A program made the translations under genes and the position numbers. A stretch of DNA of 64,000 nt from positions 1-64,000 of the forward strand of contig RKRR01000157.1 of the NCBI GenBank assembly GCA_007571305.1, in the 5' to 3' direction. The first letter of the stretch is position 1, and every line of letters starts with the position of its first letter. The notes under the pieces were generated by a model. The model saw only the letters and a list, made by a program, of their open reading frames with translations, did no database searches and was not told where the DNA came from. Origin of the DNA: Candidatus Poribacteria bacterium (GTDB taxonomy: Bacteria; Poribacteria; WGA-4E; WGA-3G). Shown here piece by piece: positions 22,002 through 61,907 of this stretch.

Positions 22002-22117
22002 AGAAAGGAGAGCATTTGTGCCTGACTCCCTTCAGGTAGAAAAGGCGTTTGGGCGTTGTAGGACGCGGGTTGGAAGTTAGCATCGCAACGTCCCCGCCGA
22101 AACTTGCAAGAAAAAGT

Positions 22118-22888: not shown

Positions 22889-23010
22889 AATGGCTATCAG
22901 CCGTCGGTTAAGAGAGTTTGGATGCACTCACCTCTCTTGGGATTGACTGCTCATAATTGAGAGGATTTCTTTAAATCCGTATTGATGGCTATGAAAAGGA
23001 GCAGAAAAAT

Positions 23011-27000: not shown

Positions 27001-27169
27001 GCTCATTGACTGGATGAAGGATCCGCAGACGTTCCAACCGGGAACTGCGATGCCGCAAGCGTGGCCCCTTGTTGGTGGACAGCACATGCCACTCGATGGT
27101 TATGCTGGCAATGATGCTGAAAAACAAATTCGACTCGTCCGAGATTATCTCATTTCCTTAGGACGTTAA
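24059..27169 (+). CDS. Membrane-anchored octaheme cytochrome c with coiled-coil domain
   Basis: A 1036-residue protein. One N-terminal helix (ALFFILSGLLGLVTIWGFW) is followed by a charged helical region (about 40-250) with heptad-like character, then eight CxxCH heme sites: C270, C379, C430, C470, C618, C712, C829 and C947 (first residues). The second half looks like repeated cytochrome c modules (CLTCH, CFGCH, CTGCH, CISCH), each with a distal methionine in MP-type segments such as DTSMPSLRLS, SRMPVFQVS, VRMPTFGLS and TAMPQAWPL. An SH3-like insert (QRTGVVTKTASGIIIKTDDG) lies near residue 545. It should take electrons from the Rieske/cytochrome b pair. The start is GTG after GGGAG. Confidence 0.9.
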   Translation: MRNKKEIPAESKSYSALFFILSGLLGLVTIWGFWDEMITRRPWKQIQQQFYQYEYEKTSAELENTKLVLPELPTPQEPDAKELGRLTKEVRNAQVALEEALQERKFRQSESDAINYKYQHSLHEAKGRHNATVDKWQKKLADYESQIEGELTEAVLKAEAAFANANITLAKFYQTSGDAPSALSTYLTAQKYSPTDTEITAGITAAQASLQSLQTDKAKHDEVERLEEKLDSVGGIKRTFLGSLLENPFRETRTIVQYYLEDFSHTADRCATCHFSADKAGYEQAAQEIFEVEGDGENPVVHRLKHASVKVGSENIVIDGFEAEADEYTLEENGALTFSDVDVFGEVEVSYETGYRSVLQTHPHRDVLLDKHPVDRFGCTLCHGGQGQALTAKSAHALTHAEYWLTPVLGLDEHTGRTSEETKGYMESNCRRCHDGVMMLDYGVNPETDEPQDYAPNLTKGLALFEDLGCHGCHAVEGYSAIEDIAKVGPSLAKVGSKVKNTDWLESWIKKPEAYLANAAMPNFFPVDGMTQIVYLKNGGQRTGVVTKTASGIIIKTDDGTEYPYPDNYVLRIVDEVKSIATYLAGMSDASLDESNSDYSTSESAIKAGEETVKTVGCLTCHAVDGLGSDFAPALDSVGTKVTASYLHQWISDPKAYDPDTSMPSLRLSNREVDNVVAYLMSLQQTTTNVDTDSIGEVDVAEGEALVRTYGCFGCHEIPGFENESKVGADLGEFGAKLADELDFGDTVGIEHSWTGWTIGKVTDPRRYQTRRIVSRMPVFQVSDEDARAIAVLLKSFQPEKYPLSYIHNRSEKLNDIDAGRRLVKKYNCTGCHEIEGAGGDYQDIIIAHEGLGEMVAKQLAPPPLKAEGARVYPDWLFTFLKEPSDVRYGLKVRMPTFGLSDDEATTLVRYFSALDDEPFPYETLETPTPTSAELRVGKQIFDVLQCISCHPAKGEVIPEGSDKAGRPDLALAKERLKADWLIDWMKDPQTFQPGTAMPQAWPLVGGQHMPLDGYAGNDAEKQIRLVRDYLISLGR

Positions 27170-28519: not shown

Positions 28520-30424
28520 ATGATGAAAATAACTAAAAAAAGGATCTATCTCATACTTGGCTGCGTACTGGTTGGTTATGCCTTGTTAGCTGTCGCACCG
28601 GTGTTTGCACAGGACGCGACTGAAGCAGAGTATCGCGCCTTCCCGAAGATCGGTAGCCGAAGTGCCGCATGGATCGCTGCTCAACTCCACCTGTTGTTCG
28701 GATCTTTTATTCTCGGTGTCCCGATGTTTGCCGTTATCATCGAATTTATCGGCTGGAAGACGAAGGACATGCGATACGATCGGATGGCGCAAGAGTTCAT
28801 TAAACTCTGTATGGGCGCGTTTTCGACGACAGCCTTACTCGGTGGGGTTCTCGTCTTCATCCTTATCTGGTGCTATCCCAAAGTCATGACAAAGCTCAGC
28901 GGGATATTTGGACCGACGATGATTTTTTACGTCATCCTATTCTTCGGAGAAACCTTTACGCTTTATCTTTACTCCTATGGATGGGATAAGATGCAGGGAC
29001 GGCATAAAGGATGGCACCTCTTCCTCGGTGTGCTGCTGAATGTATTCGGCACTGCGATTATGTTCGTTTCTAACGCATGGTTGAGTTATCAAACCAGTCC
29101 TGCAACGCAATACGGCGTGCTCTCTGAAGGAAGACGAAAATCCTGGATTGAGGAGAAATTGGCTGCAGATCCGGCACTCACCCCTGAAACCGCTATGGAA
29201 GGTGTCACAAGCCATACGATGGTGCCCCTCCACAACGAAACAACTGGCGAGTTCATGGGGACGGTGTGGGATGCTGTCAACAACTTTACATGGATGCCCG
29301 TTAATATCCATCGCCTCGTCGGTAACATTGCTTTCGGAGGTTCCATTGTAGCCGCCTATGCTGCGTTCCGTTTCCTCGTCGCCAAGACGAAGGAGGACAA
29401 AGCACACTACGATTGGATGGGATATACCGGGAATTTCATCGCACTTTGCGGGCTTATACCACTGCCTTTCCTCGGTTATTGGCTCGGTAGAGAAATCTAC
29501 ATGTTCAATAACACAATGGGCATTAACATGATGGGCAGTCTGTTCTCTTGGCTCTTTATCATTCAGGCGGTGATGATTGGTGTGCTCTTTATTGGGGCAA
29601 ACTATTATCTTTGGTCTGGTATGGGGCGGATTGAAGGGGCGGAGATATATGCTCGATACCGTCCGTATATGATCACCGTTATTATCATCTGTGTCGCAAT
29701 CTGGATGACCCCGCGGACACTCTCTAAGATCTCAACTGCCAGCGAACTGAGCGCGATGGGCGGCGCAAACCACCCACACCTCGGGTTGTTCGGCTTGATG
29801 ACTGCCAAAAATACGGCTGTTAATATCATTATTCTTACGACTTTCTTGAGTTTCCTCTTTTATCGACGTTCAGGTAAGGTGCCTACGGCGAATTGGAAAA
29901 AAATTGGCAATATTGGTATCTCTGCGCTCTTCTTCCTGGCGACAGTCTCAATTGTCGTTATCGGTATCGTCGGATTTAGCGTTCCGACGGATTTGCGTGT
30001 CAATATCCTTACCCCTTATCAGGTCCTGATTGCACTTGCTGTAATGGCTATCGTTACTATTGTGGATATTTTCATGTACCGCAAGGCGACAACATCTGGC
30101 ACTATCAAATGGGGCGAAATGACGGACCGCTCACAATATGTGTTGATTCTCGTTGCAATTACGTTTACGTCCCTCATGGGACTGATGGGATATGCACGCT
30201 CAGGGCTTCGAGAAGCGTGGCATATTTTTGGAGTCATGCAGGATACATCTGCTGATGCTTTTACACCCCTTCTCAGCGAAGCGGTGAACATGGTAGCAAT
30301 CATCATGGTAGTCTTTTTCGCACTTGTCGGGTTTATTTTTTGGCTCGGTTTGTGGGGCGAAAAGAAGAAGCAGGAGGATGCAGTTACCACTGAAGCAGTT
30401 GCGACTGCCGAAGGTGATGACTAA
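28520..30424 (+). CDS. CydA-like cytochrome bd-family membrane protein without the Q-loop motif
   Basis: A 634-residue polytopic protein with a leader-like N-terminus (LLAVAPVFAQ). Two His match conserved heme ligands of cytochrome bd subunit I: H57 in AQLHLLFGSFILGVP and H264 in VNIHRLVGNIAFGGS. The GRQPW quinol-loop signature of true CydA is absent; the corresponding region reads PFLGYWLGREIYMFNNTMG. No cydB follows. Such CydA-like proteins occur in Nitrospira-type respiratory loci, where their role is unsettled. Here it is flanked by cytochromes c and a cupredoxin, so it may exchange electrons with periplasmic carriers rather than oxidise quinol by the bd mechanism. Confidence 0.75.
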   Translation: MMKITKKRIYLILGCVLVGYALLAVAPVFAQDATEAEYRAFPKIGSRSAAWIAAQLHLLFGSFILGVPMFAVIIEFIGWKTKDMRYDRMAQEFIKLCMGAFSTTALLGGVLVFILIWCYPKVMTKLSGIFGPTMIFYVILFFGETFTLYLYSYGWDKMQGRHKGWHLFLGVLLNVFGTAIMFVSNAWLSYQTSPATQYGVLSEGRRKSWIEEKLAADPALTPETAMEGVTSHTMVPLHNETTGEFMGTVWDAVNNFTWMPVNIHRLVGNIAFGGSIVAAYAAFRFLVAKTKEDKAHYDWMGYTGNFIALCGLIPLPFLGYWLGREIYMFNNTMGINMMGSLFSWLFIIQAVMIGVLFIGANYYLWSGMGRIEGAEIYARYRPYMITVIIICVAIWMTPRTLSKISTASELSAMGGANHPHLGLFGLMTAKNTAVNIIILTTFLSFLFYRRSGKVPTANWKKIGNIGISALFFLATVSIVVIGIVGFSVPTDLRVNILTPYQVLIALAVMAIVTIVDIFMYRKATTSGTIKWGEMTDRSQYVLILVAITFTSLMGLMGYARSGLREAWHIFGVMQDTSADAFTPLLSEAVNMVAIIMVVFFALVGFIFWLGLWGEKKKQEDAVTTEAVATAEGDD

Positions 30425-30583
30425 TAGGGGCTAAAGGCGGAACTTTTGCAGGAAGAATTGATGACCAAGGAAGTTAGTAACCCCGATTAAGAATACAGCG
30501 GCATCCGAACCAAAACAGGTCCTTAATCAGAAACCCGCTCGTAATGGAATGGAGAGCGGAGCGAAAACTTAATAGTTAAAAAT

Positions 30584-32095
30584 ATGTCAAGAAATACGCT
30601 CATAAAAATTGCGAGTCTCATCTTAATGGTGGTGAGTTTCATCGCCTATATTGCTGGCGCATCCGCGTTTCCGATTGCTTCGGAGAACCTACTGCCGTGG
30701 TCGGTTTGGTTTCTCATCTCGGTGATCATAAACATCGTTTTATGGTCTAACGTCATGAAACTGTTGACGTTTTCGCTTGCTGTGATATGGTTCTACGCCT
30801 TTGTCGCAGGGCTTGTTCCAGAAAGTTCCACAGCGGTAAATCTGACTTCGCTGGATTGGAGCGATCCGGAAGCAGTCGCTGAGCAAGGTGCTCTGGTATT
30901 TAATGGAAAGGGACAGTGTAGCGCGTGCCATACCGTCGATACCTCCGCCCCGAAAGGGAGATGTCCCGATTTAACAGACATCGGCATTAACGCCGCCAGT
31001 CGCGTCCCAGGCACAGATGCAAAAACTTATCTCATCGAATCACTTTATGAACCCGCTAAATATCTTGTACCCGGATACGGCAAGATTATGCCAGAGATTT
31101 GGAAAGCTCCTATTGCTCTCTCAAAATTGGAGATTGAGGCGGTTATCGCTTATCTCCAGAGTCTCGGTGGTGAGATAGATCCGACACCCTTTGATGAACC
31201 GATAGATCGGGCAGATGCAGGTACAGTTGCAGCAGCGCTCCCACCCGTGCTTACAGGCGATCCGGAACTCGGCAAAAAGGTTTTTGTGACTGCGGCGTGT
31301 ATCTCGTGCCATGCTGTGACAGGTATAGAAAGTCCAGCTGCAGGTGAGACGACTACAGACTTTGAAGTTGTCACTGCGCCAGACCTCTCTGAAATTGCTG
31401 CCTTTAACGACATGCGGTATCTTGAGGAGTCGGTTCTAAAACCCAGCGAGCAAATTGTAAGTGGTTATGGTGCCGTTACCGTTCGTGCGAAAGGAGCCAC
31501 CTATCAAGGCACGCTTGTCTCACAGGATACAGAACAGCTTGTCGTCCGAACCAAAACTGCGGACGGTGTTGAAGAGGAACATACCCTCTTATTGAGCGAA
31601 CTTGATGATGAACCGATTGAGGATCTCACGAATTTGCAGACGAAAGGATATTTTACATTGACGCTAACGCCTGCGGATGCGGAGGTACCAGTAAGTGGTG
31701 AAATTGTTTCAGAAACCGAGGACACCGTGACCCTTAAGGTCGACGGCGAAGATCGGACATTTTCTAAAACAGATGTGAAAAGCCAAATGACCGTTATCAC
31801 TTTTGATGGCGACGAAATTGTGGGCGAGTATGTTTCAGGCACGATGGACGACGACGAAATCATCCTCGTGGTTGATGGAAGCGAAGAAATATTTGATACG
31901 TTTGATCTTGAGGAAGCCACCTTTACCCGTGCCTCTGGTAAAAAGTTGTTCGTCACATCGCCGATGCCCGAAAACTTCCCGCTACTGTTATCGGTATCAG
32001 ATATGAGCAATTTGCTCTCCTTCTTAAGCACGCTTACGGGCGCAGCGGCAGAAGTAGTTTCTGAAGGAGCAGCGGAGGGAACTCCGGCAGAATAA
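30584..32095 (+). CDS. Diheme cytochrome c with N-terminal membrane domain
   Basis: A 503-residue protein. Three N-terminal helices (residues about 5-85) anchor two cytochrome c modules with heme sites CSACHTVD (C112) and CISCHAVT (C239). After the second heme, a beta-rich region (about 300-450) contains at least two similar SH3-like strands: TYQGTLVSQDTEQLVVRTK and GEIVSETEDTVTLKVDG, with a third, GEYVSGTMDDDEIILVVDG. The octaheme protein has the same kind of insert. The tail is Ala/Glu-rich and probably flexible. The leader before it carries a family E 3' end (CGTAATGGAATGGAG) at about 30533. Confidence 0.82.
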   Translation: MSRNTLIKIASLILMVVSFIAYIAGASAFPIASENLLPWSVWFLISVIINIVLWSNVMKLLTFSLAVIWFYAFVAGLVPESSTAVNLTSLDWSDPEAVAEQGALVFNGKGQCSACHTVDTSAPKGRCPDLTDIGINAASRVPGTDAKTYLIESLYEPAKYLVPGYGKIMPEIWKAPIALSKLEIEAVIAYLQSLGGEIDPTPFDEPIDRADAGTVAAALPPVLTGDPELGKKVFVTAACISCHAVTGIESPAAGETTTDFEVVTAPDLSEIAAFNDMRYLEESVLKPSEQIVSGYGAVTVRAKGATYQGTLVSQDTEQLVVRTKTADGVEEEHTLLLSELDDEPIEDLTNLQTKGYFTLTLTPADAEVPVSGEIVSETEDTVTLKVDGEDRTFSKTDVKSQMTVITFDGDEIVGEYVSGTMDDDEIILVVDGSEEIFDTFDLEEATFTRASGKKLFVTSPMPENFPLLLSVSDMSNLLSFLSTLTGAAAEVVSEGAAEGTPAE

Positions 32096-32104
32096 CTTTT
32101 AAAT

Positions 32105-32366
32105 TTACCTTGCGGATAAATAACGCAATTTGAGACTTCCTGCTTTCTACGTTGGAGTTCAAGAACATCCCGTTGAATGCCACACGCTTATTCAGCGTTG
32201 ATTCGCAAAAACCCCTCTACTGCGTTATGAGTTTGCCGTTCGATGTTAGAAGTATGTTTGGAATATTCAAAAACCTGCCTGTAATGAAATTGGGTTGTCC
32301 TTAAATGACATAATTTGTCTTTGCTGGACATTTGGAAGGCAGGGCAGAAACTTAATAATTAAAAAA
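32105..32366 (+). repeat. Repeat family E element filling an intergenic gap
   Basis: The 271-bp gap starts with TTACCTTGCGGATAAATAACG and ends with AAAAACCTGCCTGTAATG and CTTAATAATTAAAAAA directly before the ATG at 32367. The same end blocks occur at 36847-37072 and 53807-54010. No gene was seen. Confidence 0.55.
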
Positions 32367-33143
32367 ATGAAAAGACTGTCGCTCTTCACAATATGTCTCA
32401 TAATTCTGATTGGTTCTTGGGTTGTACTGCGGTTTGCCATTGGTGGCATCGTCTCGGTGCCGATACCGGGCAGCGTGATTGCGATGTATATGGGGTTGAT
32501 TATCATCGCTGTCTTGGTGCATATCTCCGTTGAGGATTCACTCTTTCGCGAATTTTTGCGACCCATCCATGAAACACTCGTCGATAACAATCTCCGTGTC
32601 CGCCGCCGCGTTATCGCGGTGTTAATTCCTCTGTTCTTACTGGGTTATACCCATTCAATTATTGCCCAACGAGCGAATCCACCTGGAAGCCCGCGTGACG
32701 CACACCCATCACCGCCCCTTGAGTTGACCTACAAGGATGAGGTTATTGGTACGATGCAAGATGTCGTGAACCCTTTCCGGCACTATGAAAAAGATGATCC
32801 AGAAGCGTTCAAAGCGCATGTTGAAAACGGTAGACGCGTCTATTATGATAACTGTTTTTACTGCCACGGAGATCATTTGGATGGGCAGGCACATTTCGCA
32901 CCATATCTTCAACCACTTCCCGCTAATTTCCAAGATCCGGGGATTATCCCTAATTTCCAGGAATCTTTCTTCTTTTGGCGGATAGCGAAGGGCGGACCTG
33001 GATTACCTGCAGCGGGGACCCCTTGGGATTCAGCGATGCCTATTTGGGAGAACTACTTGACAAAGGACGAAATTTGGGACGTGATTCTCTTTCTATCCGA
33101 TTACACCGGCTATCAGCCACGAACCTTCGGGGAGGCACACTAA
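32367..33143 (+). CDS. Monoheme cytochrome c with N-terminal transmembrane segments
   Basis: A 258-residue protein. Two or three hydrophobic segments (LSLFTICLIILIGSWVVL, VIAMYMGLIIIAVLVHI, VIAVLIPLFLLGYTHSII) precede a periplasmic cytochrome c domain with CFYCHGDHLDG (C163) and a distal methionine in DSAMPIWENYL. The ATG at 32367 is used; the earlier in-frame start lies in repeat E. Its stop codon is followed immediately by the ATG of the next gene, so the two are coupled. Confidence 0.85.
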   Translation: MKRLSLFTICLIILIGSWVVLRFAIGGIVSVPIPGSVIAMYMGLIIIAVLVHISVEDSLFREFLRPIHETLVDNNLRVRRRVIAVLIPLFLLGYTHSIIAQRANPPGSPRDAHPSPPLELTYKDEVIGTMQDVVNPFRHYEKDDPEAFKAHVENGRRVYYDNCFYCHGDHLDGQAHFAPYLQPLPANFQDPGIIPNFQESFFFWRIAKGGPGLPAAGTPWDSAMPIWENYLTKDEIWDVILFLSDYTGYQPRTFGEAH

Positions 33144-34856
33144 ATGGTAAACAGAAATGTTGTCACTCTCCTGATGCTGGTCTTCGGGCTACTGTGCGCT
33201 GTTATGTTAGTGCACGCCCAGAACGCGCCAGAGGCCTCCGAAAGAGGGAAAGAGGTGTATGAGCAAAGTTGCGCCCATTGCCATGGAACCGAAGGTAGAG
33301 GCGACGGTTCTGCTGCTGAGAATCTCCTTCCAAAACCGAGGGATTTCACACGCGGTTTGTATAAGATTCGTTCTACAGAGAGTGGTCAACTCCCGACGGA
33401 TCAGGATCTCTTTGACATTATTACCATAGGGATGCCCGGATCGTCGATGCCGGGGTGGGAAACCTCCCTAAGTGCCGACGAGCGCTGGGAAGTGGTGGCA
33501 TATATCAAGACCTTTTACAATGGATTTAAAGAGAGTGAAGCACCACCACGGCAAATCAGCTTGGAAGGTAAAATTGCTTACTCTGAGCAGAGCGTGGAAA
33601 CCGGAAAAGAACTTTATGTCGAACTCGGCTGTGTGGAATGCCACGGTAACGTTGGACGAGGGGATGGGACATCTGCCCCTACGTTGACGGATGAATGGGG
33701 CTTCCAGACATGGCCCGCGAATCTCGCCCAAAGTTGGAATTTTCGAGGTGGTGCTGACACTGAAGCCATTTTCAAACGATTCATCGGGGGAATCGCAGGG
33801 TCACCGATGCCCGCGTTTGAAGGCGATAGTTTCTTACATTTCGGGTTGAGTGTAGAGGAATCCAAACGTCTCACCGAATTGGAGAACAAAGACGAAATGA
33901 CGGAGGTAGAGGAAACGGAATCCGAGAAGTTTTACGAAAAGATGGATGTCGCTGTTGACCTCGCGCTCAATCGGGCAGAAGGCATAGAGTTAACTGCAGC
34001 TGAACAGCAAACATACGATGACGCGATGAAAGTCGTCTATGAAAAGAGTTGGCATTTGGCGAACTACGTAAAATCTCTCGCGCCTGAAGAGCGTCCTGAA
34101 CCTGCGATCGGGAAAAATGTTCTCCGCTCGCAATACGTTCAAGGTGAACTGCCCGGAATGGAGGATACCGCGTGGGAAGTGCTTCAATCCAGACACTTCC
34201 CCCTTGTTGGGCAGGTCGTCATCGAACCTCGCCAGTTTAACCCAACAATTGATTCCGTGAACATTAAGTCGTTTTACAATGACACAGAGGTCGCGTTCCT
34301 TTTCATGTGGGATGATCGGACGCACACGACTGGTGACGAAATCGATGAGTCAACAGGGAAACCCCTTGAGGATGCGTTGGCGATTCAATTTCCAGTGAAG
34401 GTGCCGCAAGGTCCCACCGCACCCAAGCCTTATTTTTTGTGGGGTGGTAGACTACCCGTCTATCTGTGGCATTGGAAAGCCTCCGCACCTGAACAGGTGG
34501 TCGAGATCACTGCTAAGGGAATCAACAACGCTGAAGTTCAGGCGGCACAAGGCGCATTACAAGCACAAGGTGCCTACACGGATGGGCAATACAAATTGTG
34601 GGTGAAACGTGCCTTGAAGACCGACGACAAGAAGGACTTGCAACTTGAACCCGGTGTCTTTGTACCTATTGCTTTCTCCGCGTGGGATGGTGCTAACGGC
34701 GATGTTGACACAAAACGGGTCGTGTCCAGTTGGTATACTTTTGTACTTGAACCTGTTCCGTCTTCAAGACGTTTTGTATATCCACCTTTGATTGCAGTTC
34801 TCTCTCTCGGTTTGCTCTTCGGTTTACGGGCAGTCGTACAGCGGAGAAATTCGTAA
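33144..34856 (+). CDS. Diheme cytochrome c fused to an ethylbenzene-dehydrogenase-type heme-binding domain
   Basis: A 570-residue periplasmic protein. A signal peptide (LMLVFGLLCAVMLVHA) is followed by two cytochrome c modules, CAHCHGTEGRGDGS (C43) and CVECHGNVGRGDGT (C163), then from about residue 330 an EB_dh-type domain (WEVLQSRHFPLVGQVVIEP, VAFLFMWDDRTHT, ALAIQFPVKV) that in gamma subunits of DMSO-reductase-family enzymes holds a b heme. A C-terminal helix (YPPLIAVLSLGLLFGL) anchors it. Nitrite oxidoreductase and related gamma subunits share this plan, but no molybdopterin subunit is encoded in the window. Confidence 0.83.
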   Translation: MVNRNVVTLLMLVFGLLCAVMLVHAQNAPEASERGKEVYEQSCAHCHGTEGRGDGSAAENLLPKPRDFTRGLYKIRSTESGQLPTDQDLFDIITIGMPGSSMPGWETSLSADERWEVVAYIKTFYNGFKESEAPPRQISLEGKIAYSEQSVETGKELYVELGCVECHGNVGRGDGTSAPTLTDEWGFQTWPANLAQSWNFRGGADTEAIFKRFIGGIAGSPMPAFEGDSFLHFGLSVEESKRLTELENKDEMTEVEETESEKFYEKMDVAVDLALNRAEGIELTAAEQQTYDDAMKVVYEKSWHLANYVKSLAPEERPEPAIGKNVLRSQYVQGELPGMEDTAWEVLQSRHFPLVGQVVIEPRQFNPTIDSVNIKSFYNDTEVAFLFMWDDRTHTTGDEIDESTGKPLEDALAIQFPVKVPQGPTAPKPYFLWGGRLPVYLWHWKASAPEQVVEITAKGINNAEVQAAQGALQAQGAYTDGQYKLWVKRALKTDDKKDLQLEPGVFVPIAFSAWDGANGDVDTKRVVSSWYTFVLEPVPSSRRFVYPPLIAVLSLGLLFGLRAVVQRRNS

Positions 34857-45834: not shown

Positions 45835-47739
45835 ATGATAAAAAAAATCTACGTACCTGTTGACAATTCGGACTACTCGGACGCAAGTGTTGCTCTGGCA
45901 GTTGCGTTCGCGAGGAAGTTCGGCTCCCAATTGGTAGGTTCACACGTTTACGCCGCAAAAATGCACGATGTTCGCTTTAAACAGATGGAGTACACCCTGC
46001 CAGAGGAGTACCAAGACGAGGTCGAGCTTGAAAAACAGCGTCGTATCCACGATACGCTCATTACGATGGGACTGCAACTCATCTCGGACTCCTATCTTGA
46101 GGTGATGAAGCAGAAGTGCACTGAATTCGGGATCCCGTTTGAACCGAAAATGCCGGAAGGCAAACACTTTATAAAACTCGTTGAGGATATTCAGGAAAGC
46201 GATTACGATCTTGTGATTATGGGTGCACTCGGTATGGGTGCTGTCAAGGATAGTCTCATCGGTGGTGTCTGTGAACGCGTCGTCCGCCGTATTAATACCG
46301 ATATGCTTATCGTCCGGGACCTGGAACCTATCGAAAAAAGTGAAGGAAATATTCTCGTCGGGATTGATGGAAGTCCAGAGTCTTTTTCAGGCTTGAAAAC
46401 TGCGATACAGCTCGGACATAAGTTCAACAAACAGGTCGAAGCCGTCGGTGTCTACGATCCCTATCTACACTATATTGTCTTCAATTCTGTTGTGAATGTG
46501 CTCACGGAACGCGCCGCACGGACTTTCAGATTTAAAGAGCAGGAGCAACTCCACGAAGAGGTGATTGATACTGGCTTAGCAAAAATCTATCAATCGCATT
46601 TGGAGGTTGCACGCTCCATCGCAAAAGAGGAACACGACTACACCCTAAAAATTACCCTGCTTGATGGCAAAGCCTACGAAAAAATTCTACAATACGCCCG
46701 AAAAACAGATCCGTGGCTCCTCGTCTTAGGCAGAATCGGTGTCCACAGTGAACAGGATATGGACATCGGTAGCACCGCCGAGAATCTATTGCGCCTTGCC
46801 CCTTGCAACGTCCTCCTATCGAGCCAACGTTATTTCCCACAAATAGATGTGAAAGCGGAAGAGACGCTCGTCTGGACACAGGAGGCTTTGGACAGGATGG
46901 AGAAGGCACCATCCCTTGTCCGTGGCATTGCCAAGACAGCCGTCCATCGGTTTGCTATAGAGCGCGGACATTCTGTCATCACTGAGAGTGTCATTGACAT
47001 GGCGATGGAAGCGATCATGCCGCAGCGTGCCTCTGAAAAATTGACCCGCGTCGCAAAAGAGATCGCTGAACAGAAGGTACTCGAGTCGGATGCCGTCCGA
47101 ACGTACATCTGTTCCGAATGTGGCTACGCCGCACACAACCAACAACCCGTGAAATGTCCTGTTTGTAGTTCATCGCCGGAGCGTTTTCAGCGGGTGGACA
47201 AGGGATCATTGCAGAATATTGCTGTGGACGAAGGTGGCACTGCTGAGGAAGAGACATTTGATGGCGTGCGGCTCCAATGGTCGGAACAGGCGAAAAAGGC
47301 GTTGCGAAGTGTTCCGCGCGGCTATATGCGCCGAAACGTCAAAGCACGTATCGAGAAATCCGCACGTTCTCAAAAGATTGCCACTATCACAAACGCCTTC
47401 GCAACCGAAATTATTGATGACAGCATGGGTGAAGCGGCGGCAGTCCGTGAAGATGCTCCCGAACTTAGAGCCATGCAAGCGCAGACCGACGCTCGGAACA
47501 CTGAAGTCGTTCGAGGTTTTGAGAGTCCGGTGTCGTGGACCCAAGAGGCAATCGAACGTTTGAATTTAGTACCTGCCGGATTTATGCGGAATATCACGCA
47601 GACCCGAATTGAACAGCGAGCACAAGAGAACAACATTACCCAAATTACGCTTGATTTCGCTGCACGGGTCATTGAAGACGGCAGGAGTCTCGCCAATGAG
47701 GTACTTGGTCAGTACTATCAACAGTCAAACCAGGATTGA
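45835..47739 (+). CDS. Tandem universal stress protein fused to rubredoxin and three PCP_red domains
   Basis: A 634-residue soluble protein of unusual architecture. Two Usp domains (about 1-160 and 172-330) come first; the first has the nucleotide-loop pattern GALGMGAVKDSLIGGV and the second GRIGVHSEQDMDIGSTAENLL. Then three PCP_red helical domains (the fold found at the C-terminus of BchB, about 343-395, 478-530 and 565-620), recognisable from WTQEALDRMEKAPSLVRG, WSEQAKKALRSVPRGYMR and WTQEAIERLNLVPAGFMR. A rubredoxin-like C4 site (C426, C429, C441, C444) sits between the first two. No photosynthesis gene is present. A redox- or iron-linked regulatory role for the oxidase locus is plausible but unproved. 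Confidence 0.85.
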   Translation: MIKKIYVPVDNSDYSDASVALAVAFARKFGSQLVGSHVYAAKMHDVRFKQMEYTLPEEYQDEVELEKQRRIHDTLITMGLQLISDSYLEVMKQKCTEFGIPFEPKMPEGKHFIKLVEDIQESDYDLVIMGALGMGAVKDSLIGGVCERVVRRINTDMLIVRDLEPIEKSEGNILVGIDGSPESFSGLKTAIQLGHKFNKQVEAVGVYDPYLHYIVFNSVVNVLTERAARTFRFKEQEQLHEEVIDTGLAKIYQSHLEVARSIAKEEHDYTLKITLLDGKAYEKILQYARKTDPWLLVLGRIGVHSEQDMDIGSTAENLLRLAPCNVLLSSQRYFPQIDVKAEETLVWTQEALDRMEKAPSLVRGIAKTAVHRFAIERGHSVITESVIDMAMEAIMPQRASEKLTRVAKEIAEQKVLESDAVRTYICSECGYAAHNQQPVKCPVCSSSPERFQRVDKGSLQNIAVDEGGTAEEETFDGVRLQWSEQAKKALRSVPRGYMRRNVKARIEKSARSQKIATITNAFATEIIDDSMGEAAAVREDAPELRAMQAQTDARNTEVVRGFESPVSWTQEAIERLNLVPAGFMRNITQTRIEQRAQENNITQITLDFAARVIEDGRSLANEVLGQYYQQSNQD

Positions 47740-48049: not shown

Positions 48050-49051
48050 ATGGGATCCCAAGATTCTCGCGTTGAGACATTTGAAGCTGCAACGGGTATT
48101 TTCGACAGGCCACGTCAGATTACGGTTTCAGATACCTATAACACCGATGTGGACGTTGTTCTCTTTAATGGAGATTGTAGCGAACTGCTAAAGAACATTC
48201 CCTCAAATTCAGTAGATTTAGTCATTACATCTCCCCCATACAACATCGGGAAAAAATACGAGAAGCAAACGTCCTTACAGTCATATCTAAAAAATCAGGA
48301 ACCGGTAATTGCGGAAATGGATCGGGTGCTTGCTGCGACTGGAAGTCTCTGCTGGCAAGTGGGAAATTACGTCCAAAAAGGTGAAGTATTTCCGCTCGAC
48401 ATTTATTTTTATGAGATTTTCAAACGCTATGGCTTAAAACTACGGAATCGAATTATCTGGCGGTTTAATCACGGACTGCACTGCACAAAGCGATTCTCAG
48501 GTCGATATGAAACTATTTTGTGGTTCACGAAAAACGATACGTATGTTTTCAATCTCGACGCAGTGCGTGTTCCCGCAAAGTACCCAGGCAAACGACATTT
48601 CAAAGGTCCAAAGCGAGGCCAACTTTCAGGGAACCCGCTTGGCAAGAATCCTTCTGATATTTGGGATGTTGTCACACAAGGCTGGGAAGAAGGTGTTTGG
48701 GATATTCCAAACGTCAAAGCGAATCATCCAGAGAAAACAGAACATCCATGTCAGTTTCCAGTCGAGTTAGTCCAGCGATGTGTTTTGGCACTCACACAAC
48801 CTGACGGAACTGTTTTAGACCCATATTGTGGTGTCGGATCTACTATTATCGCTGCCTTACAGCATGATCGAAAGGCGATTGCCGCTGAACAGGATTCAAC
48901 CTATGTAGATATTATTCGTGAGAGGCTACAGTTATTTGCAGAGAATAAATTACCTCTCCGTCCTCTTGGAAAACCCATTCACAAACCAACGAAAAAAGAC
49001 CGTGTTGCCCAGATACCATTGGAATTGATGTTTAAAGAAATTGAGCAGTAA
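48050..49051 (+). CDS. Site-specific DNA methyltransferase (beta class, N4-cytosine or N6-adenine)
   Basis: A 333-residue SAM-dependent enzyme. The catalytic motif IV, TSPPYNIGKKY, is near residue 63 and precedes the SAM motif I region, LDPYCGVGSTIIAALQHDRKAIAAEQD, near residue 262; this order defines the beta class. SPPY is more usual for N4-cytosine enzymes, but adenine methylation is not excluded. The target-recognition region lies between. No restriction endonuclease is recognisable next to it. The gene following the A-family repeat is of unknown function. An orphan or regulatory methyltransferase is the simplest reading. Confidence 0.9.
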   Translation: MGSQDSRVETFEAATGIFDRPRQITVSDTYNTDVDVVLFNGDCSELLKNIPSNSVDLVITSPPYNIGKKYEKQTSLQSYLKNQEPVIAEMDRVLAATGSLCWQVGNYVQKGEVFPLDIYFYEIFKRYGLKLRNRIIWRFNHGLHCTKRFSGRYETILWFTKNDTYVFNLDAVRVPAKYPGKRHFKGPKRGQLSGNPLGKNPSDIWDVVTQGWEEGVWDIPNVKANHPEKTEHPCQFPVELVQRCVLALTQPDGTVLDPYCGVGSTIIAALQHDRKAIAAEQDSTYVDIIRERLQLFAENKLPLRPLGKPIHKPTKKDRVAQIPLELMFKEIEQ

Positions 49052-51400: not shown

Positions 51401-52288
51401 ATGAAAAGTTACAAAGAGTTACCAAGCGATGCCGGCTCCAATATTATCGGACAAGTCACGGCACAGGTGAACCGTGTCCAGAAACGACTCGCCTCGGTCA
51501 AACACACAGTCGCAATTATGAGCGGGAAAGGTGGTGTTGGCAAAAGTTCACTCACCGCGAACCTCGCCGCAGCACTTACACTGAAGGGTAACACAGTCGG
51601 GGTTGTGGATGCCGACATCAACGGACCTACGCTCGCCAAGATGATGGGGGTGCGTAACGCTACTTTGGGATACACACCCGCTGGAGTCAAGCCTGCTGTT
51701 ACCGCTCTCGGCACCAAACTTATCTCTATGGATTTACTCTTGGCAGAAGATGATGCTCCGGTCCTCTGGAATGCTCACACCCAAAAGGATGCGTTCACGT
51801 GGCGTAGCACGATGGAGGTCAGCGCGCTCCGGGAATTCATCGCCGATACCGAGTGGGGATCCCTGGATTATCTTCTGCTGGATTTGCCACCCGGAACCGA
51901 GCGACTTCCAAACGTAGTAGAACTTGTCCCTGACCTTGGCGGTGTGGTCGTCGTAACAATCCCGTCAGAGGTATCGCAACTCATTGTGAAAAAATCGGTA
52001 ACAATGGCAAAAGACGTTCTGAATATCCCAATCATCGGCGTTGTCGAAAATATGGCTTTCTATGTCTGTCAGCACTGTGGCGAGGAGGAACCGCTCTTTT
52101 CTGCTGGCGAGGCACTGGATACTGCATTCCAGCAGGTGATCCTCGGAAGTGTCCCCTTTGATCCACGACTCGCCCGTTCTGGTGACGACGGAACGCTTTA
52201 TCTTGATGAATACCCGGACGCGCCCGCGAGCAAGGCACTCATGCAGGTAGCTGAAAAAGTTCAAGCGTTTTTGAAGAAAAGTCCGTGA
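51401..52288 (+). CDS. Mrp/NBP35 (ApbC-type) iron-sulfur carrier ATPase
   Basis: A 295-residue deviant P-loop ATPase: MSGKGGVGKSSLTANLAAAL (P-loop at about 42-50), VVDADINGPTLAKMMGV, and LLDLPPGTE. C223 and C226 (YVCQHCGEEE) form the CxxC that holds a bridging [4Fe-4S] cluster at the dimer interface. It delivers iron-sulfur clusters to target proteins. The N-terminal DUF59/MIP18 domain of many bacterial Mrp proteins is missing. A PCP_red protein is encoded 53 bases downstream. Confidence 0.9.
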   Translation: MKSYKELPSDAGSNIIGQVTAQVNRVQKRLASVKHTVAIMSGKGGVGKSSLTANLAAALTLKGNTVGVVDADINGPTLAKMMGVRNATLGYTPAGVKPAVTALGTKLISMDLLLAEDDAPVLWNAHTQKDAFTWRSTMEVSALREFIADTEWGSLDYLLLDLPPGTERLPNVVELVPDLGGVVVVTIPSEVSQLIVKKSVTMAKDVLNIPIIGVVENMAFYVCQHCGEEEPLFSAGEALDTAFQQVILGSVPFDPRLARSGDDGTLYLDEYPDAPASKALMQVAEKVQAFLKKSP

Positions 52289-52341: not shown

Positions 52342-52872
52342 ATGAAGTTCTTATGTACAGACTGTGACACGGCGATGAAATTTAAAGACGTAACCCGTCC
52401 CGAACAAGGCTCCGTGACAGCACTTTTTGAGTGTCCTGACTGCTTTACAGAGATCGCCATGTTCCTCAATCCGTCGGAGACTCAGATGCTAAAATCCTTG
52501 GATCTCAAACTGGGTGGGAACAACGAGGCAGCGCAGCCGATGCAGATGGTGCGTTCACAGTTAGAAACCGCAAAAACCGAAGCGATGCCTAACGAGTTTT
52601 CCGCAGAAGTGAGTTCGGGCGGAACTGCTGAAGGTGGCAAATGCCCCTTTACCTCTGTCATCTCGGACGCATTTCAGGAGGAACCAGAACGTGTCGAGCC
52701 GACCGGTCCCGTCTGGTCAGCAGAGGCACTTGAACGCTTAGAACGGATTCCGGCGTTTGTCCGTCCTATGGCGAAGATGGGGATTGAGAGTTTCGCGAAA
52801 GACAACAGATACGATGAGATTACAGGCGAAGTCATGGATGCCGCACGCGGAAACTTCCCCACACAATTCTAA
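52342..52872 (+). CDS. Zinc-ribbon and PCP_red domain protein
   Basis: A 176-residue protein. Two CxxC pairs near the N-terminus (CTDCDTAMKF, FECPDCFTEI) make a zinc ribbon. After a linker, residues 130-176 form a PCP_red domain (VWSAEALERLERIPAFVRPM, SFAKDNRYDEITGEVMDAAR). It is the second PCP_red protein in the window and follows the Mrp ATPase with short spacing, so the two are probably one operon. This suggests handling of iron-sulfur clusters; the domain's biochemical role outside chlorophyll synthesis is unknown. Confidence 0.8.
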   Translation: MKFLCTDCDTAMKFKDVTRPEQGSVTALFECPDCFTEIAMFLNPSETQMLKSLDLKLGGNNEAAQPMQMVRSQLETAKTEAMPNEFSAEVSSGGTAEGGKCPFTSVISDAFQEEPERVEPTGPVWSAEALERLERIPAFVRPMAKMGIESFAKDNRYDEITGEVMDAARGNFPTQF

Positions 52873-56751: not shown

Positions 56752-57969
56752 ATGGAGAACAGATTGAGGAAAATATTAATCTACTTATATCTACTGTTGT
56801 TTTGTGGCACTCTACTCGCTTTCGGACAAGGACTACCAATAGCGGTGCCAGAGGAGGTGGGTGTTTCTACCAAACGCCTCAAACGCATTCGACCTCTCCT
56901 GCAAGATTATGTCAATTCAGGACAACTGCCTGGATTCCTGACGGTCGTGGCGAGACGCGGAAAAATCGTTCATTTTGAGACCATCGGCAGGCGAGACGTT
57001 GAGGAGGACAAACCCGTTGAGCCAAATACGATATTCCGTATCTATTCCATGTCTAAACCGATTACCAGTGTTGCAGTGATGATGCTTTATGAAGAAGGAC
57101 ATTTTCAACTCGGTACCCCCGTCTCCAAATTTATTCCTCAGTTTGAGAACATGAAGGTCTACAACGAGGACCAGACTGAAATCTTGGATACGAAGAAAGA
57201 GGTAACTATCAAACACCTCCTCATGCATACCGCTGGGTTGACTTACGGCTGGGGCAATAAACCTGTTGATGAACGCTACAAAGAACTCAAAATCTTTGAG
57301 ACCGGCTCGACATTAGTTGATATGGTAAAAAAACTCGGCAGTATCCCGCTCGTTCACGAACCGGGTGAAAGATGGACTTATGGTGTCTCAACGGATGTGC
57401 TCGGTTACCTCGTGGAGGTGGTTTCAGGGATGCCGTTTGAAGAGTTTCTCCAAGCGCGCCTCTTTGGTCCCCTCGGTATGGTAGACACAGCGTTCTCAGT
57501 GCCACCGGAGAAAGTGAACAGGTTTGCGGCACTCTATAGACCGAATAAAGAGAATGGACTGGAACGTGTCGAAAATGCCCCGCTCGCGAACGATGAAATC
57601 AGTTTTTTCCCATCAGGCGGTGGGGGCCTCGTTTCAACCGCTGCAGATTATATGTGATTTTGTCAAATGTTGCTCAATGGCGGTGCGTTAGACGGTGTCC
57701 GCATATTGGGCAAAAAGACGGTTGAACTCATGCGCTACCCCCATCATGATGATTGGTTTGGACTCGGTTTTGCTGTCGTCACGGATAAGGAACCCCCAAA
57801 CATTCTGGAGTCCGTAGGGAATTTCAGTTGGGGTGGTGCTGCCGCTACCACCTTCTGGATCGACCCTGAGGAAGAATTAATCGGCTTGCTTATGACGCAG
57901 CTCCTCAGAAACCCTTACCCTTTCCAGCAACAATTCAAAGTCTTAACCTATCAGGCACTCACTGAATAG
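56752..57969 (+). pseudogene. Serine hydrolase (class C beta-lactamase fold) with in-frame stop
   Basis: A 405-codon reading frame interrupted by TGA at 57655-57657 (codon 302). The paralogue at 58068 reads CGA (Arg) at the same place in the sequence DYMRFCQMLLNGG; after the stop the frame here continues FCQMLLNGGALDGVRILGKK to a normal end at 57969. A signal peptide (LLLFCGTLLAFGQG) and the catalytic S99-M-S-K102 are intact, but the truncated product would lose about 100 residues of the fold, including most of the final sheet and helix. Family members are esterases, D-aminopeptidases and penicillin-binding proteins. First of four tandem copies. Confidence 0.88.
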
Positions 57970-58067
57970 TATCTGTCAGACCAGCGATTTTCAATATCCG
58001 GTTATACATATCACAGCGGGCTATTTCTTGTGGTAACTGATAACTGGCAAGCATCTCGTAGGAGATT

Positions 58068-59390
58068 TTGAAGGTTCCAATATTGAAAGAGGAAAACGAA
58101 TTGAGAAAATTATTCGTCTACATATATGTATTACTGTTTTGTACCACCACACTCGTTTTCGGACAAGGTCTTCCGATGGAGGTACCGAAGGATGCCGGTG
58201 TTTCTGCTGAACGTCTTGCACACATCCGTCCAGCCATGCAAAATTATGTTGATGACGGACGTATACCGGGCTTCCTGACGGTCGTGGCAAGACGCGGAAA
58301 AATCGTTCACTTTGAAACCATCGGTATGCGAGATATTGAAAATAATAAACCTATTGAAGCAGACACAATATTTCGTATCCATTCTATGTCGAAACCGATT
58401 ACCAGTGTTGTGGTGATGATGCTTTATGAAGAAGGACATTTTCAACTCGACACGGCTGTGTCCGATTTCATCCCAGAATTTAAAAGTATGAAGGTCTACA
58501 ACGAGGATCAGACCGAAATTTTAGATGCGAAGAAAGAGGTAACCATCAAACATCTTCTCATGCATACCGCTGGGTTAGTCTACGGCTGGGGCAATGAATC
58601 GATCGATAAACGTTATCAGAAGGCGAACCTTTTTCAGCCCGGCACCCCGCTCGGGGATACAGTGAAGAAACTTAGCGAAATCCCACTCGCTCATGAACCC
58701 GGTGAAAAGTGGACTTATGGTGTCTCAACGGATGTGCTCGGCTATCTCGTGGAAGTGGTTTCAGGAATGCCGTTTGAAGAATTCCTCCAAACACGCCTGT
58801 TTGAACCCCTCGGTATGGTAGACACCGCATTTTCAGTGCCTATAGGGAAGTTGGACAGGTTTGCTGCAGTGTATCAACTGACGACAAAAGACAGAATGAA
58901 AGGTAGTAAAGAGAAAGAAAAATGGATGACAGGTGATAAAAAAGAAAAAATGAAGTTGGAACGTGTGGATAAAGATCCACGACTCGAGAGCGGTGAGATC
59001 CGTTTCTTTCCAGGGGGAGGTGGCGGACTCGTCTCAACTGCTTCGGATTATATGCGATTTTGTCAGATGTTACTCAATGGAGGCGAACTCGACGGTGTCC
59101 GCATACTAAAGAAAGAAACGGTTGAACTCATGCGCTACCCCCATCACGATGGTTGGTTTGGACTCGGTTTTTCTGTCGTAAGGGATAAGACATCGAAAGA
59201 TAGGGATGATAAAGAACCTAAAGATACACCTGAGTCTATAGGAAGTTACAGTTGGGGCGGTGCCGCCGGTACCCTCTTCTGGATTGATCCTGAAAAAGAG
59301 TTGATCGGTTTGCTCATGACGCAAATCAGTGACGTGTCCTCTTCCCATGATCAGTTTAAAGTGCTAACCTATGAGGCACTCACGGAATAG
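58068..59390 (+). CDS. Secreted serine hydrolase, class C beta-lactamase/esterase family (copy 2)
   Basis: A protein of about 440 residues. A signal peptide (LFVYIYVLLFCTTTLVFGQG) precedes the hydrolase fold: SMSKPIT with the nucleophilic Ser and Lys, the Tyr in WTYGVSTDVLGYLVEVVSG, and GGGGLVSTASDYMRF. Two Lys/Asp-rich insertions absent from the other copies occur at about residues 265-300 (TTKDRMKGSKEKEK, GDKKEKMKLERVDK) and 375-385 (KTSKDRDDKEPKD). The start may be the TTG at 58068 or, more likely, the TTG at 58101, which has AAAGAGGA at the right distance and corresponds to the N-terminus of copy 1. Substrate unknown. Confidence 0.85.
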   Translation: MKVPILKEENELRKLFVYIYVLLFCTTTLVFGQGLPMEVPKDAGVSAERLAHIRPAMQNYVDDGRIPGFLTVVARRGKIVHFETIGMRDIENNKPIEADTIFRIHSMSKPITSVVVMMLYEEGHFQLDTAVSDFIPEFKSMKVYNEDQTEILDAKKEVTIKHLLMHTAGLVYGWGNESIDKRYQKANLFQPGTPLGDTVKKLSEIPLAHEPGEKWTYGVSTDVLGYLVEVVSGMPFEEFLQTRLFEPLGMVDTAFSVPIGKLDRFAAVYQLTTKDRMKGSKEKEKWMTGDKKEKMKLERVDKDPRLESGEIRFFPGGGGGLVSTASDYMRFCQMLLNGGELDGVRILKKETVELMRYPHHDGWFGLGFSVVRDKTSKDRDDKEPKDTPESIGSYSWGGAAGTLFWIDPEKELIGLLMTQISDVSSSHDQFKVLTYEALTE

Positions 59391-59468
59391 TAGTCAGTCG
59401 TGCTGAATGCTACACGTGCATTCAGCGTTGATTCTCTACGTACTGACGACTACCCTATAGGAGACTTA

Positions 59469-60650
59469 ATGACAATATATGAAGGGTTACCGCGAGCGAT
59501 TCCTGAAGATGTGGGCGTATCGACCTCGCGGTTGGAACGTATTGCACCTATCATGCAAGGCTATGTTGACAACGGAAAGATCCCTTGTGCCTTGACAATG
59601 GTAGCACGTAAAGGCAAACTCGTCCATTTTGAAAAGTTTGGGATGCAGGATGTCGCTGCCGCCAAACCCGTAGAATATAACACCATTTTCCGCATCTACT
59701 CGATGACGAAGCCAATTACCAGCCTCGCAGTGATGATGCTCTATGAGGAAGGACATTTTCAACTCAGCACACCGGTTGCCGAATTTGTTCCCGCTTTCCA
59801 GGACATGAAAGTCTACACTGAAGATGGCAGTGCTATTGTTGATGCGGCGCGCGAGGTGACAATAAAACATTTACTCACACATACTGCTGGGCTTATCTAT
59901 GAGAGTGATCGGGAGGATCACCCGATTGATCAGCAATATGAGGATGCCGACCTCTATGGCGGTGACCTCGCGAATATGATACAGAAACTCGGAAGTATTC
60001 CACTCTTTCACCATCCAGGTGACGCATGGAAGTACGGTATGTCTACCGACGTGCTCGGTTACCTTGTAGGGATCGTCTCCGGTATGCCGTTTGAGACGTT
60101 TTTGAAGACTCGTATTTTTCAGCCTTTAGGCATGAACGACACAGGCTTTTCGGTGCCAGTTAAAAATGCTGACCGATATTCGAAGGTCTACGAATTCGGA
60201 GGAGATGGGGAGCTTCAGGCAATTGAAAAGGTCCACGCTGCAACTGGACCGCTGACTTTTTTTCATTCTGGTGGCGGAGGGCTACAATCGACCGCACCGG
60301 ACTACCTCCGCTTCTGCCAGATGATACTCAACGGTGGTGAACTCGACGGCGTACGGTTGCTTGGAAGGAAGACGGTTGAACTTATCACGATGGACCATAT
60401 TTCTAACAGTTGGCAACCCAATCAGAGAACCGGGTCCGGTTTCGGACTTGGGTTCGCCGTTGTCACGGATGTCGCTGAAACGCATACACTCGGTTCTTTG
60501 GGAACTTGCGGTTGGGGAGGCATGGCTAGTACCACGTTTTGGATTGATCCTGTGGAAGAGTTGATCGGCGTTTTTATGACACAATTGGTCGGTGCCGATT
60601 CACCGTTCCACGCCCAATTCCGGGTACTTGCCTATCAAGCATTAACTTGA
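59469..60650 (+). CDS. Serine hydrolase, class C beta-lactamase/esterase family (copy 3, no signal peptide)
   Basis: A 393-residue paralogue lacking a signal peptide: translation from the ATG at 59469 (TAGGAGACTTA upstream) starts MTIYEGLPRAIPEDVGVSTS, directly at the domain. The active site SMTKPITSLAVMMLYEEGH, the Tyr in WKYGMSTDVLGYLVGIVSG and HSGGGGLQSTAPDYLRF are intact, and so is the C-terminal sheet (WGGMASTTFWIDPVEELIGV). It is probably cytoplasmic, unlike copies 1 and 2. Confidence 0.88.
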   Translation: MTIYEGLPRAIPEDVGVSTSRLERIAPIMQGYVDNGKIPCALTMVARKGKLVHFEKFGMQDVAAAKPVEYNTIFRIYSMTKPITSLAVMMLYEEGHFQLSTPVAEFVPAFQDMKVYTEDGSAIVDAAREVTIKHLLTHTAGLIYESDREDHPIDQQYEDADLYGGDLANMIQKLGSIPLFHHPGDAWKYGMSTDVLGYLVGIVSGMPFETFLKTRIFQPLGMNDTGFSVPVKNADRYSKVYEFGGDGELQAIEKVHAATGPLTFFHSGGGGLQSTAPDYLRFCQMILNGGELDGVRLLGRKTVELITMDHISNSWQPNQRTGSGFGLGFAVVTDVAETHTLGSLGTCGWGGMASTTFWIDPVEELIGVFMTQLVGADSPFHAQFRVLAYQALT

Positions 60651-60728
60651 TAAGCGTTATCACAAGAGGACCTGGTGTATATCGGGACCTCTTAACTGAC
60701 AACTGATAATTTCTCATGGGAGGCTTCT

Positions 60729-61907
60729 ATGGCGAGATATGGATATGAAGGATTACCGCGCGCAGTGCCTGAAGAGGTAGGCATATCAACATCACGATTG
60801 GAACGCATCGCTCCGGTCATGCAAGGCTGGGTTGACGATGGAAAAATCCCCGGTGCGCTAACGATGATAGCGCGTGAAGGCAAACTTGTCCATTTTGAAA
60901 AGTTCGGTATGCAGGATGTTGCCACTGCAGAACCGCTGGAATTTGATACTATTTTCCGCATTTATTCAATGACGAAGCCGATTACCAGCCTCGCAGTGAT
61001 GATGCTCTATGAAGAGGGACATTTTCAACTCAACACCCCTGTCTCCGAATTTATTCCCGCTTTCAGAGATATGAAAGTCTATGCTGAAGGTGGAGAGGCT
61101 GTTGTTGACGCAGAAAGCGAAATGACGATAAAGCATCTGCTCACGCATACTTCTGGACTTATCTATGGCGGTGAGGGAGATCATCCGATTCATCAGCAGT
61201 ATAGAGATGCCAACTTTTATGGATCTACACTCCGAGGAATGTCAAAGAAACTCGGGGCTATTCCTCTTGCTTATCATCCCGGTGCTTCGTGGAGTTACGG
61301 TATGTCTACCGATGTCCTCGGGCATTTCGTCGAAGTGGTTTCTGGGATGCCGTTTGCACAGTTTTTAAAAAGAAAAATCTTTGACCCCTTGGATATGCCA
61401 GATACTGCCTTCTCTGTTTCCAGCAGGAAGGGGGACCGGTATGCGACCCTATACGAACCTGCTGAAGATGGCGGTATTCAAGTCATTGAAAACGCACTTG
61501 TTTCCAGCGGACCGCGCAGCTTTTTCCATTCTGGGGGTGCGGGGCTACAGTCAACCGCGGCGGATTACCTTCGCTTCTGCCAAATGCTACTCAACGATGG
61601 TGAACTTGATGGGGTTCGATTGCTTGGAAGGAAAACCGTTGAACTCATTAGAATGAACCATATCTCTGACGAGTGGCAGCCACTTGAGAGAATAGGATGC
61701 GGTTTCGGACTTGGGTTCGCTGTCGTCACGGATGTTGCTGAAACGCATGCTCCGGGTTCCTTAGGAACTTACAGTTGGGGTGGACTCGCAAGTACGACAT
61801 TTTGGATTGATCCTGGAAGATTTAATCGGCATCCTGATGACGCAATTGATAGGCGACTCACCGTTCCACGCCCAATTCCGAGTCCTTACCTATCAGGCGA
61901 TTATTGA
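60729..61907 (+). CDS. Serine hydrolase family (copy 4), frameshifted at the C-terminus
   Basis: A 392-residue paralogue closest to copy 3, also without a signal peptide, starting at an ATG preceded by GGGAGG. The active site (SMTKPITSLA), WSYGMSTDVLGHFVEVVSG and HSGGAGLQSTAADYLRF are intact. After TTFWIDPG the product runs into unrelated residues (RFNRHPDDAIDRRLTVPRP). A two-base deletion near 61815 explains this: the other frame continues EDLIGILMTQLIGDSPFHAQ and QFRVLTYQAI, as in copy 3, and then stays open to a TGA at 61951 that overlaps the next ATG. The final strand and helix are therefore lost unless this is a sequence error. Confidence 0.85.
   Translation: MARYGYEGLPRAVPEEVGISTSRLERIAPVMQGWVDDGKIPGALTMIAREGKLVHFEKFGMQDVATAEPLEFDTIFRIYSMTKPITSLAVMMLYEEGHFQLNTPVSEFIPAFRDMKVYAEGGEAVVDAESEMTIKHLLTHTSGLIYGGEGDHPIHQQYRDANFYGSTLRGMSKKLGAIPLAYHPGASWSYGMSTDVLGHFVEVVSGMPFAQFLKRKIFDPLDMPDTAFSVSSRKGDRYATLYEPAEDGGIQVIENALVSSGPRSFFHSGGAGLQSTAADYLRFCQMLLNDGELDGVRLLGRKTVELIRMNHISDEWQPLERIGCGFGLGFAVVTDVAETHAPGSLGTYSWGGLASTTFWIDPGRFNRHPDDAIDRRLTVPRPIPSPYLSGDY

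Follow-up and report, generated by a model that had tools for sequence, protein, structure and literature searches.

The window analysed here is a stretch of 64,000 nucleotides from a Candidatus Poribacteria bacterium, and the gene of interest is an open frame with an ATG start (45835..47739, plus strand) which encodes a protein of 634 aa. This protein is a Usp-Usp-PCP_red-rubredoxin-PCP_red-PCP_red fusion, an assignment based on Pfam, on orthologues of the same architecture in eight phyla and on an AF2 model. In the Pfam search, Usp was matched by two stretches (E 2e-36, 126.1 bits vs a cut-off of 24) and PCP_red (PF08369) by three (E 1.5e-28, 98.9 bits vs 32.5), and the rubredoxin-like RUBY_RBDX family scored slightly below its cut-off at residues 424-451 (E 3.6e-5, 23.6 bits vs 26.5). 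This weak call is strengthened by the relatives, because Usp, PCP_red and RUBY_RBDX were all matched in 15 of 15 relatives from eight phyla (best RUBY_RBDX E 4.1e-9), and the four Cys of the site are invariant among the fusion relatives. The domains, all on the plus strand, are Usp domain 1 (residues 1-162; 45835..46320) and Usp domain 2 (residues 170-330; 46342..46824; motif GRIGVHSEQDMDIGS), PCP_red repeat 1 (residues 347-391; 46873..47007), the rubredoxin-like CxxC...CxxC site (residues 424-451; 47104..47187; C426, C429, C441 and C444), PCP_red repeat 2 (residues 482-526; 47278..47412) and PCP_red repeat 3 (residues 568-612; 47536..47670). The Usp domains and the rubredoxin-like site rest on Pfam and alignment, and each PCP_red repeat was also matched by a separate genome-wide search (46873-47001, 47278-47400 and 47536-47658, respectively). 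Both the domain order and the three PCP_red helical segments, which had been proposed in the earlier note, are supported by profiles and relatives. A ferritin-like di-iron domain, which is a trait of rubrerythrin, had no Pfam match in the fusion.

The Usp pair of the fusion shares its fold with tandem universal stress proteins such as Rv2623, UspE and TTHA0350. Using the AF2 model (mean pLDDT 74), the top Foldseek matches were tandem Usp structures (E 3e-15), ATP-bound TTHA0350 being among those that resemble the pair, and the ATP-type motifs are also shared. In all 31 aligned members, one or both Usp domains carry the predicted ATP-binding motif G-x2-G-x9-G-(S/T). In domain 1, all aligned non-Poribacteria relatives have G-x2-G-x9-G-S, but the last residue is G in the window's protein, which carries the motif in domain 2 only. 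Compared with the known tandem proteins, the fusion has two distinctive features, namely the PCP_red/rubredoxin tail and two hyperconserved insertions of ~55 residues, neither of which was covered by PDB sequence matches to Usp proteins. Insertion 1 lies in Usp domain 1 (residues 36-90; 45940..46104, plus strand) with a long AF2 helix at 62-97, and insertion 2 lies in Usp domain 2 (residues 205-257; 46447..46605, plus strand) with an AF2 helix at 234-267. When column identities were averaged over nine lineages, the conservation maximum of the fusion fell in these two insertions, which contain many His, Asp and Glu. The mean was 89% across phyla for insertion 1 (invariant H37, Y39, H44, D45, E52, E58, H72 and D73) and 90% for insertion 2 (invariant Y207, D208, H212, E237, H240, E241, E242, D245 and H255), as against 76% and 81% for the whole Usp domains 1 and 2, 65-73% for the PCP_red repeats and 62% for the rubredoxin site. 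Because their conservation is so high, the alignment suggests that the insertions are a candidate site for a ligand, a metal or a partner. Judging from the same kind of comparison, the three PCP_red repeats are old: against their own counterparts across phyla, repeats 1, 2 and 3 have mean identities of 60%, 51% and 51%, and repeats of different position are 15-34% identical to one another.

The fusion is not peculiar to Poribacteria but is spread over no fewer than eight phyla. Scanning 84,980 species genomes gave 541 pattern matches, and fusion relatives are encoded at at least 490 of these species-level genome loci. Of the 80 loci that were kept, 52 belong to Poribacteria at 75-94% identity and 28 to others at 52-58% (best segment), and nearly the whole fusion is covered by the matches in almost all of them. 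The labels of the others are Acidobacteria, Calditrichia, Methylomirabilota/Rokubacteria, Rhodothermales/Bacteroidota, Planctomycetota, TA06 and Proteobacteria, making eight phylum-level labels together with Poribacteria. In plasmid records, the search for the fusion returned only matches to the Usp halves, at ~25% identity. Tandem-PCP_red proteins of 219-240 aa that have no Usp were also seen in Rokubacteria (L178:6672-7394 and L179:4193-4852).

Several further genes accompany the fusion and form with it what we call the PCP_red cassette. In most cassettes, a Mrp/ApbC-type P-loop ATPase is encoded near the fusion (in the window 51401..52288, plus strand; Pfam ParA 2.3e-69 and neighbourhoods). 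In the window, it is directly followed by a zinc-ribbon protein with a C-terminal PCP_red (52342..52872, plus strand; PCP_red 9.3e-16 by Pfam, and alignment). Mrp proteins are Fe-S carriers. In the Mrp alignment, Walker A is invariant, and the CxxC is lost in the Mrp of one Rokubacteria cassette (L135:13951-14808), which weakens the carrier role in that member. Two CxxC pairs are invariant in the zinc-ribbon-PCP_red protein, and its CPF motif is nearly so. In other Poribacteria, the genes stand in a single run of Cox genes with Sco, the fusion, Mrp, the zinc-ribbon-PCP_red protein, a CopD-like membrane protein, a radical SAM-PCP_red protein and a small PCP_red protein. This run is broken in the window genus, where the radical SAM part has relocated to a contig other than that of the remaining cassette genes; contig C104 carries the radical SAM/SPASM-PCP_red protein and a small PCP_red protein of 137 aa, whose family has a conserved ETCxH motif. 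Neither these three further PCP_red proteins nor the two Usp insertions had been noticed in the earlier note. In 20 distant carrier genomes, blast confirmed the radical SAM-PCP_red protein in 16, with 2 further likely cases, and the same counts were obtained for the zinc-ribbon-PCP_red protein (16 verified, 2 more likely). A DNA methyltransferase gene (N6_N4_Mtase; 48050-49051), lying between the fusion and the other cassette genes in the window, is probably an insertion, because it is present in L054 and absent in L053. A ChdC-like (PF06778) gene adjoins the cassette in two Poribacteria lineages (L045:17991-18746 and G036:C10:4494-4805), and a divergent ChdC-like gene is also found near CtaA in the Poribacteria of group f3, which have no cassette. 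A search of open-access full text returned no publication on the fusion, the cassette or PCP_red outside dark-operative protochlorophyllide reductase (DPOR), in line with the remark of the earlier note that the architecture was not recognised from described systems.

PCP_red is the C-terminal domain of BchB/ChlB in DPOR, and structures 2kru, 2xdq_B, 2ynm_D and 3aek_B match it. A further likeness to DPOR is that the cassette Mrp is a P-loop ATPase of the broad class of BchL. In contrast to DPOR, the cassette has no BchB catalytic domain, its PCP_red domains are borne by a tandem Usp, a radical SAM enzyme and a zinc ribbon, and its carriers are not chlorophyll makers, as judged by the PCP_red marker. 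In the window's genome, which is 94% complete, PCP_red gave six matches. Because all six were assigned to four proteins other than BchB, this PCP_red search yielded no BchB/ChlB, and a hidden DPOR was rejected. The earlier note had stated that no chlorophyll gene is present, and in this sense a chlorophyll-type reductase was indeed not found. The NCBIfam equivalogs of DPOR subunit B scored 57.6 bits (vs 509) and 51.1 bits (vs 490) against the fusion, matching it only over the last ~55 profile positions, and off-cluster PCP_red matches of 430-540 aa, seen in five distant genomes, turned out to belong to the radical SAM protein and not to BchB. A published pre-screen for phototrophs, which is followed by a pathway check, includes PF08369 and lists it with the phototrophy Pfams of highest prevalence (PMC12815261). 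The cassette carriers would clear this pre-screen as false positives. PF08369 is widespread among bacteria lacking a chlorophyll-type reductase and is therefore, by itself, an unsafe marker of phototrophy.

The gene that co-occurs with the cassette encodes a cytochrome bd-like membrane protein (28520..30424, plus strand) and sits 17 kb upstream of the fusion. Its score against Cyt_bd_oxida_I (3e-17; 62.8 bits) is above the Pfam cut-off of 26.2, and its profile hits structures of CydA across the N-terminal ~230 residues (5doq_A, 1.5e-17). The top nine Foldseek matches of its AF2 model were all bd oxidase chains, although the model is poor and carries little weight (pLDDT 53, five sequences). 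The bd-like gene is followed on the plus strand by genes for a diheme cytochrome c (30584..32095; Pfam, two CxxCH), a monoheme cytochrome c (32295..33143; Pfam, one CxxCH) and an alt-NxrC-like protein which joins cytochrome c to a heme b domain of the ethylbenzene-dehydrogenase type (33144..34856; EB_dh 2e-16, two CxxCH), and the CxxCH counts of two, one and two recur beside the bd-like gene in Calditrichia, Rhodothermales and the poribacterial genome G056. The same parts as in window 28520-34856 make up the bd-like oxidase/alt-NxrC module of Nitrospira, Nitrospina and Kuenenia, according to the passages that describe it (PMC3578206, PMC6606698), but no nitrite oxidoreductase was noticed beside the window module. 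The OR-N CydA family (PMC10839748, PMC12342949) is a further candidate relative. The passages on that module and on the OR-N CydA family make no mention of a link to a PCP_red cassette, and the passages concerned call the bd-like proteins of Nitrospira, Nitrospina and anammox bacteria enigmatic, with subunits and function unproven (PMC3578206, PMC6606698, PMC10839748). Upstream in the window, a 1036-aa multiheme cytochrome c with 8 CxxCH (24059-27169) comes after genes for Rieske, cytochrome b and cytochrome b C-terminal-domain proteins (21513-23877).

As shown here, the presence of the cassette follows that of the bd-like gene. Among 80 Rhodothermales genomes, PCP_red and the bd-like protein occur in exactly the same 21 and neither occurs in the other 59. 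In the phylum Poribacteria, the bd-like gene is present in 7 of 7 genomes with PCP_red (G000, G022, G064, G044, G036, G038 and G056) and in 0 of 13 without it; G056 differs from its congener G057 in both genes at once. All eight distant cassette carriers tested also have the bd-like gene. The hypergeometric values of 1e-19 (Rhodothermales) and 1.3e-5, calculated before allowing for relatedness and linkage, overstate the evidence, because the genes often lie within ~14-25 kb of one another, many of the genomes are MAGs and incomplete, and related genomes do not count as independent. Since the genes are often physically linked, block transfer or loss also inflates the counts, but tight linkage may account for only part of the pattern, because several distant genomes have the parts on separate contigs. 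The aa3 oxidase genes adjoin the fusion in Poribacteria, Rokubacteria and Methylomirabilota, and the earlier note had placed the fusion at the end of the oxidase genes. That a lone fusion has this oxidase as its partner is not supported: heme A synthase (CtaA) occurs without the PCP_red cassette in three f3 Poribacteria and in four other genomes of the same class (G054, G057, G058 and G059), one Rhodothermaceae cassette carrier (a MAG) showed no CtaA, and the bd-like gene and the cassette go together in every genome tested. The adjacent aa3 oxidase/heme A synthase was therefore rejected as the main client. In Calditrichia and Rhodothermales, the bd-like protein with its three cytochromes stands beside the fusion in place of the aa3 genes. 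Taken together, the cassette is quite probably a dedicated accessory of the bd-like module.

The same distribution bears on two other explanations. First, the fusion could be an ordinary universal stress protein to which zinc-ribbon and small helical domains were added, and its gene neighbourhood an accident of operon history. Each domain is known singly and most are common, but the full-length order is kept in eight phyla at 52-59% identity, and the strict co-occurrence with the partners and the bd-like gene largely refutes this explanation, which we regard as very improbable. Second, the cassette proteins could belong to the bd-like complex as stable subunits in the cytosol which carry electrons or nucleotides to it and have no part in assembly. 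The one-to-one co-occurrence with the bd-like gene would be expected in this case, and the conservation is similar to that of the oxidase subunit CoxA. However, radical SAM and Mrp proteins typify biosynthesis and are not stoichiometric electron carriers, and the separate contig of the radical SAM part in the window genus also speaks against stable subunits, so that we consider this quite unlikely.

Radical_SAM, SPASM and PCP_red were all found in 10 of 10 aligned proteins of the radical SAM partner, and the best NCBIfam scores were those of AhbD (heme b synthase, TIGR04545; 319.2 bits) and NirJ2 (309 bits), both under the equivalog cut-offs of 500. The partner thus has the Radical_SAM plus SPASM core of AhbD and NirJ/NirJ2 but differs from them in these sub-threshold scores, in its C-terminal PCP_red and in the presence of ferrochelatase in the genome. 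SPASM enzymes modify peptides too, which counts against a heme cofactor. It could accordingly be supposed that the radical SAM/SPASM-PCP_red protein modifies a peptide or a protein residue (RiPP-like or a cytochrome cross-link) with the fusion as its chaperone; peptide maturases often have a SPASM domain, and scores were obtained with many models of such maturases, but the top-scoring models are the heme-modifying AhbD and NirJ2, no precursor-peptide gene was noticed, and we think that a peptide or protein substrate is improbable. As radical SAM enzymes, AhbD and NirJ work on heme-type side chains (PMC7242693).

We tentatively propose, as a reading that falls just short of being probable, that the job of the cassette is to produce, insert or look after a cofactor, possibly of heme type, for the bd-like module, and that the fusion acts as a putative ATP- and metal-binding hub. 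Besides the co-occurrence, this reading is favoured by the recurring partners, the AhbD and NirJ2 scores of the radical SAM protein, the ChdC-like gene next to the cassette in two Poribacteria lineages and the conserved His, Asp and Glu of the Usp insertions. The cassette would be a cytosolic accessory system serving the bd-like subunit, the diheme and monoheme cytochromes c and the cytochrome c/EB_dh protein, and the cofactor would most likely be a modified or specially delivered heme. In such a system, the AhbD/NirJ2-like radical SAM enzyme may alter a tetrapyrrole, Mrp and the zinc-ribbon protein may provide Fe-S or metal, and PCP_red could be a shared docking or tetrapyrrole-contact module which gathers the cassette parts. 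Usp domains bind nucleotides, and the tandem Usp could gate the handover of the cofactor via the bound nucleotide, while the rubredoxin site of the fusion may relay electrons or sense the redox state. The domains of the cassette are all known already and it would rank with cofactor-biogenesis cassettes, but there is a real chance of something categorically new.

The earlier note had offered two roles, a cofactor-insertion factor for the upstream heme proteins and an energy- or redox-sensing regulator. Of these, cofactor insertion fits better, because the radical SAM partner is AhbD/NirJ2-like and the locus lies among oxidase and heme genes in several phyla. In a pure sensor, the tandem Usp would bind ATP/AMP, the rubredoxin site would sense redox or oxygen and the PCP_red repeats would bind partners, thereby regulating the respiratory module. 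The tandem Usp fold with its ATP-type motifs agrees with this, and in Nitrospira marina, Usp proteins that adjoin respiratory operons rise at low O2 (PMC8115632). However, a sensor leaves the radical SAM/SPASM enzyme, Mrp and the further PCP_red proteins that travel along unexplained, and a DNA-binding or output domain was not found; we therefore regard a sensor as unlikely.

It counts against the cofactor reading that the cassette is probably not needed for ordinary heme b, because the window's genome already encodes ferrochelatase together with one protein of HemN type and a divergent one that is ChdC-like; HemF is absent from it. The idea that the radical SAM-PCP_red protein is the genome's sole coproheme decarboxylase is weakened by the same three proteins, the last of which is also present in the cassette-less f3 genomes. 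A stronger form of the proposal, which we hold to be rather doubtful, is that the PCP_red cassette makes and inserts a modified heme (e.g. a chlorin or a side-chain-trimmed heme) used solely by the bd-like module, and would thus represent an undescribed tetrapyrrole pathway. If true, this pathway would extend over at least eight phyla and possibly to nitrite oxidisers and anammox bacteria, and PCP_red would be a general docking domain for tetrapyrrole handling which is shared by chlorophyll synthesis. A dedicated cassette would also give a direct and testable handle on the cofactor and assembly of the enigmatic bd-like proteins. Elsewhere in the window, tandem ORFs at 56752-61907 resemble serine beta-lactamase-family proteins and are probably duplicated, two of them being confirmed by Pfam.
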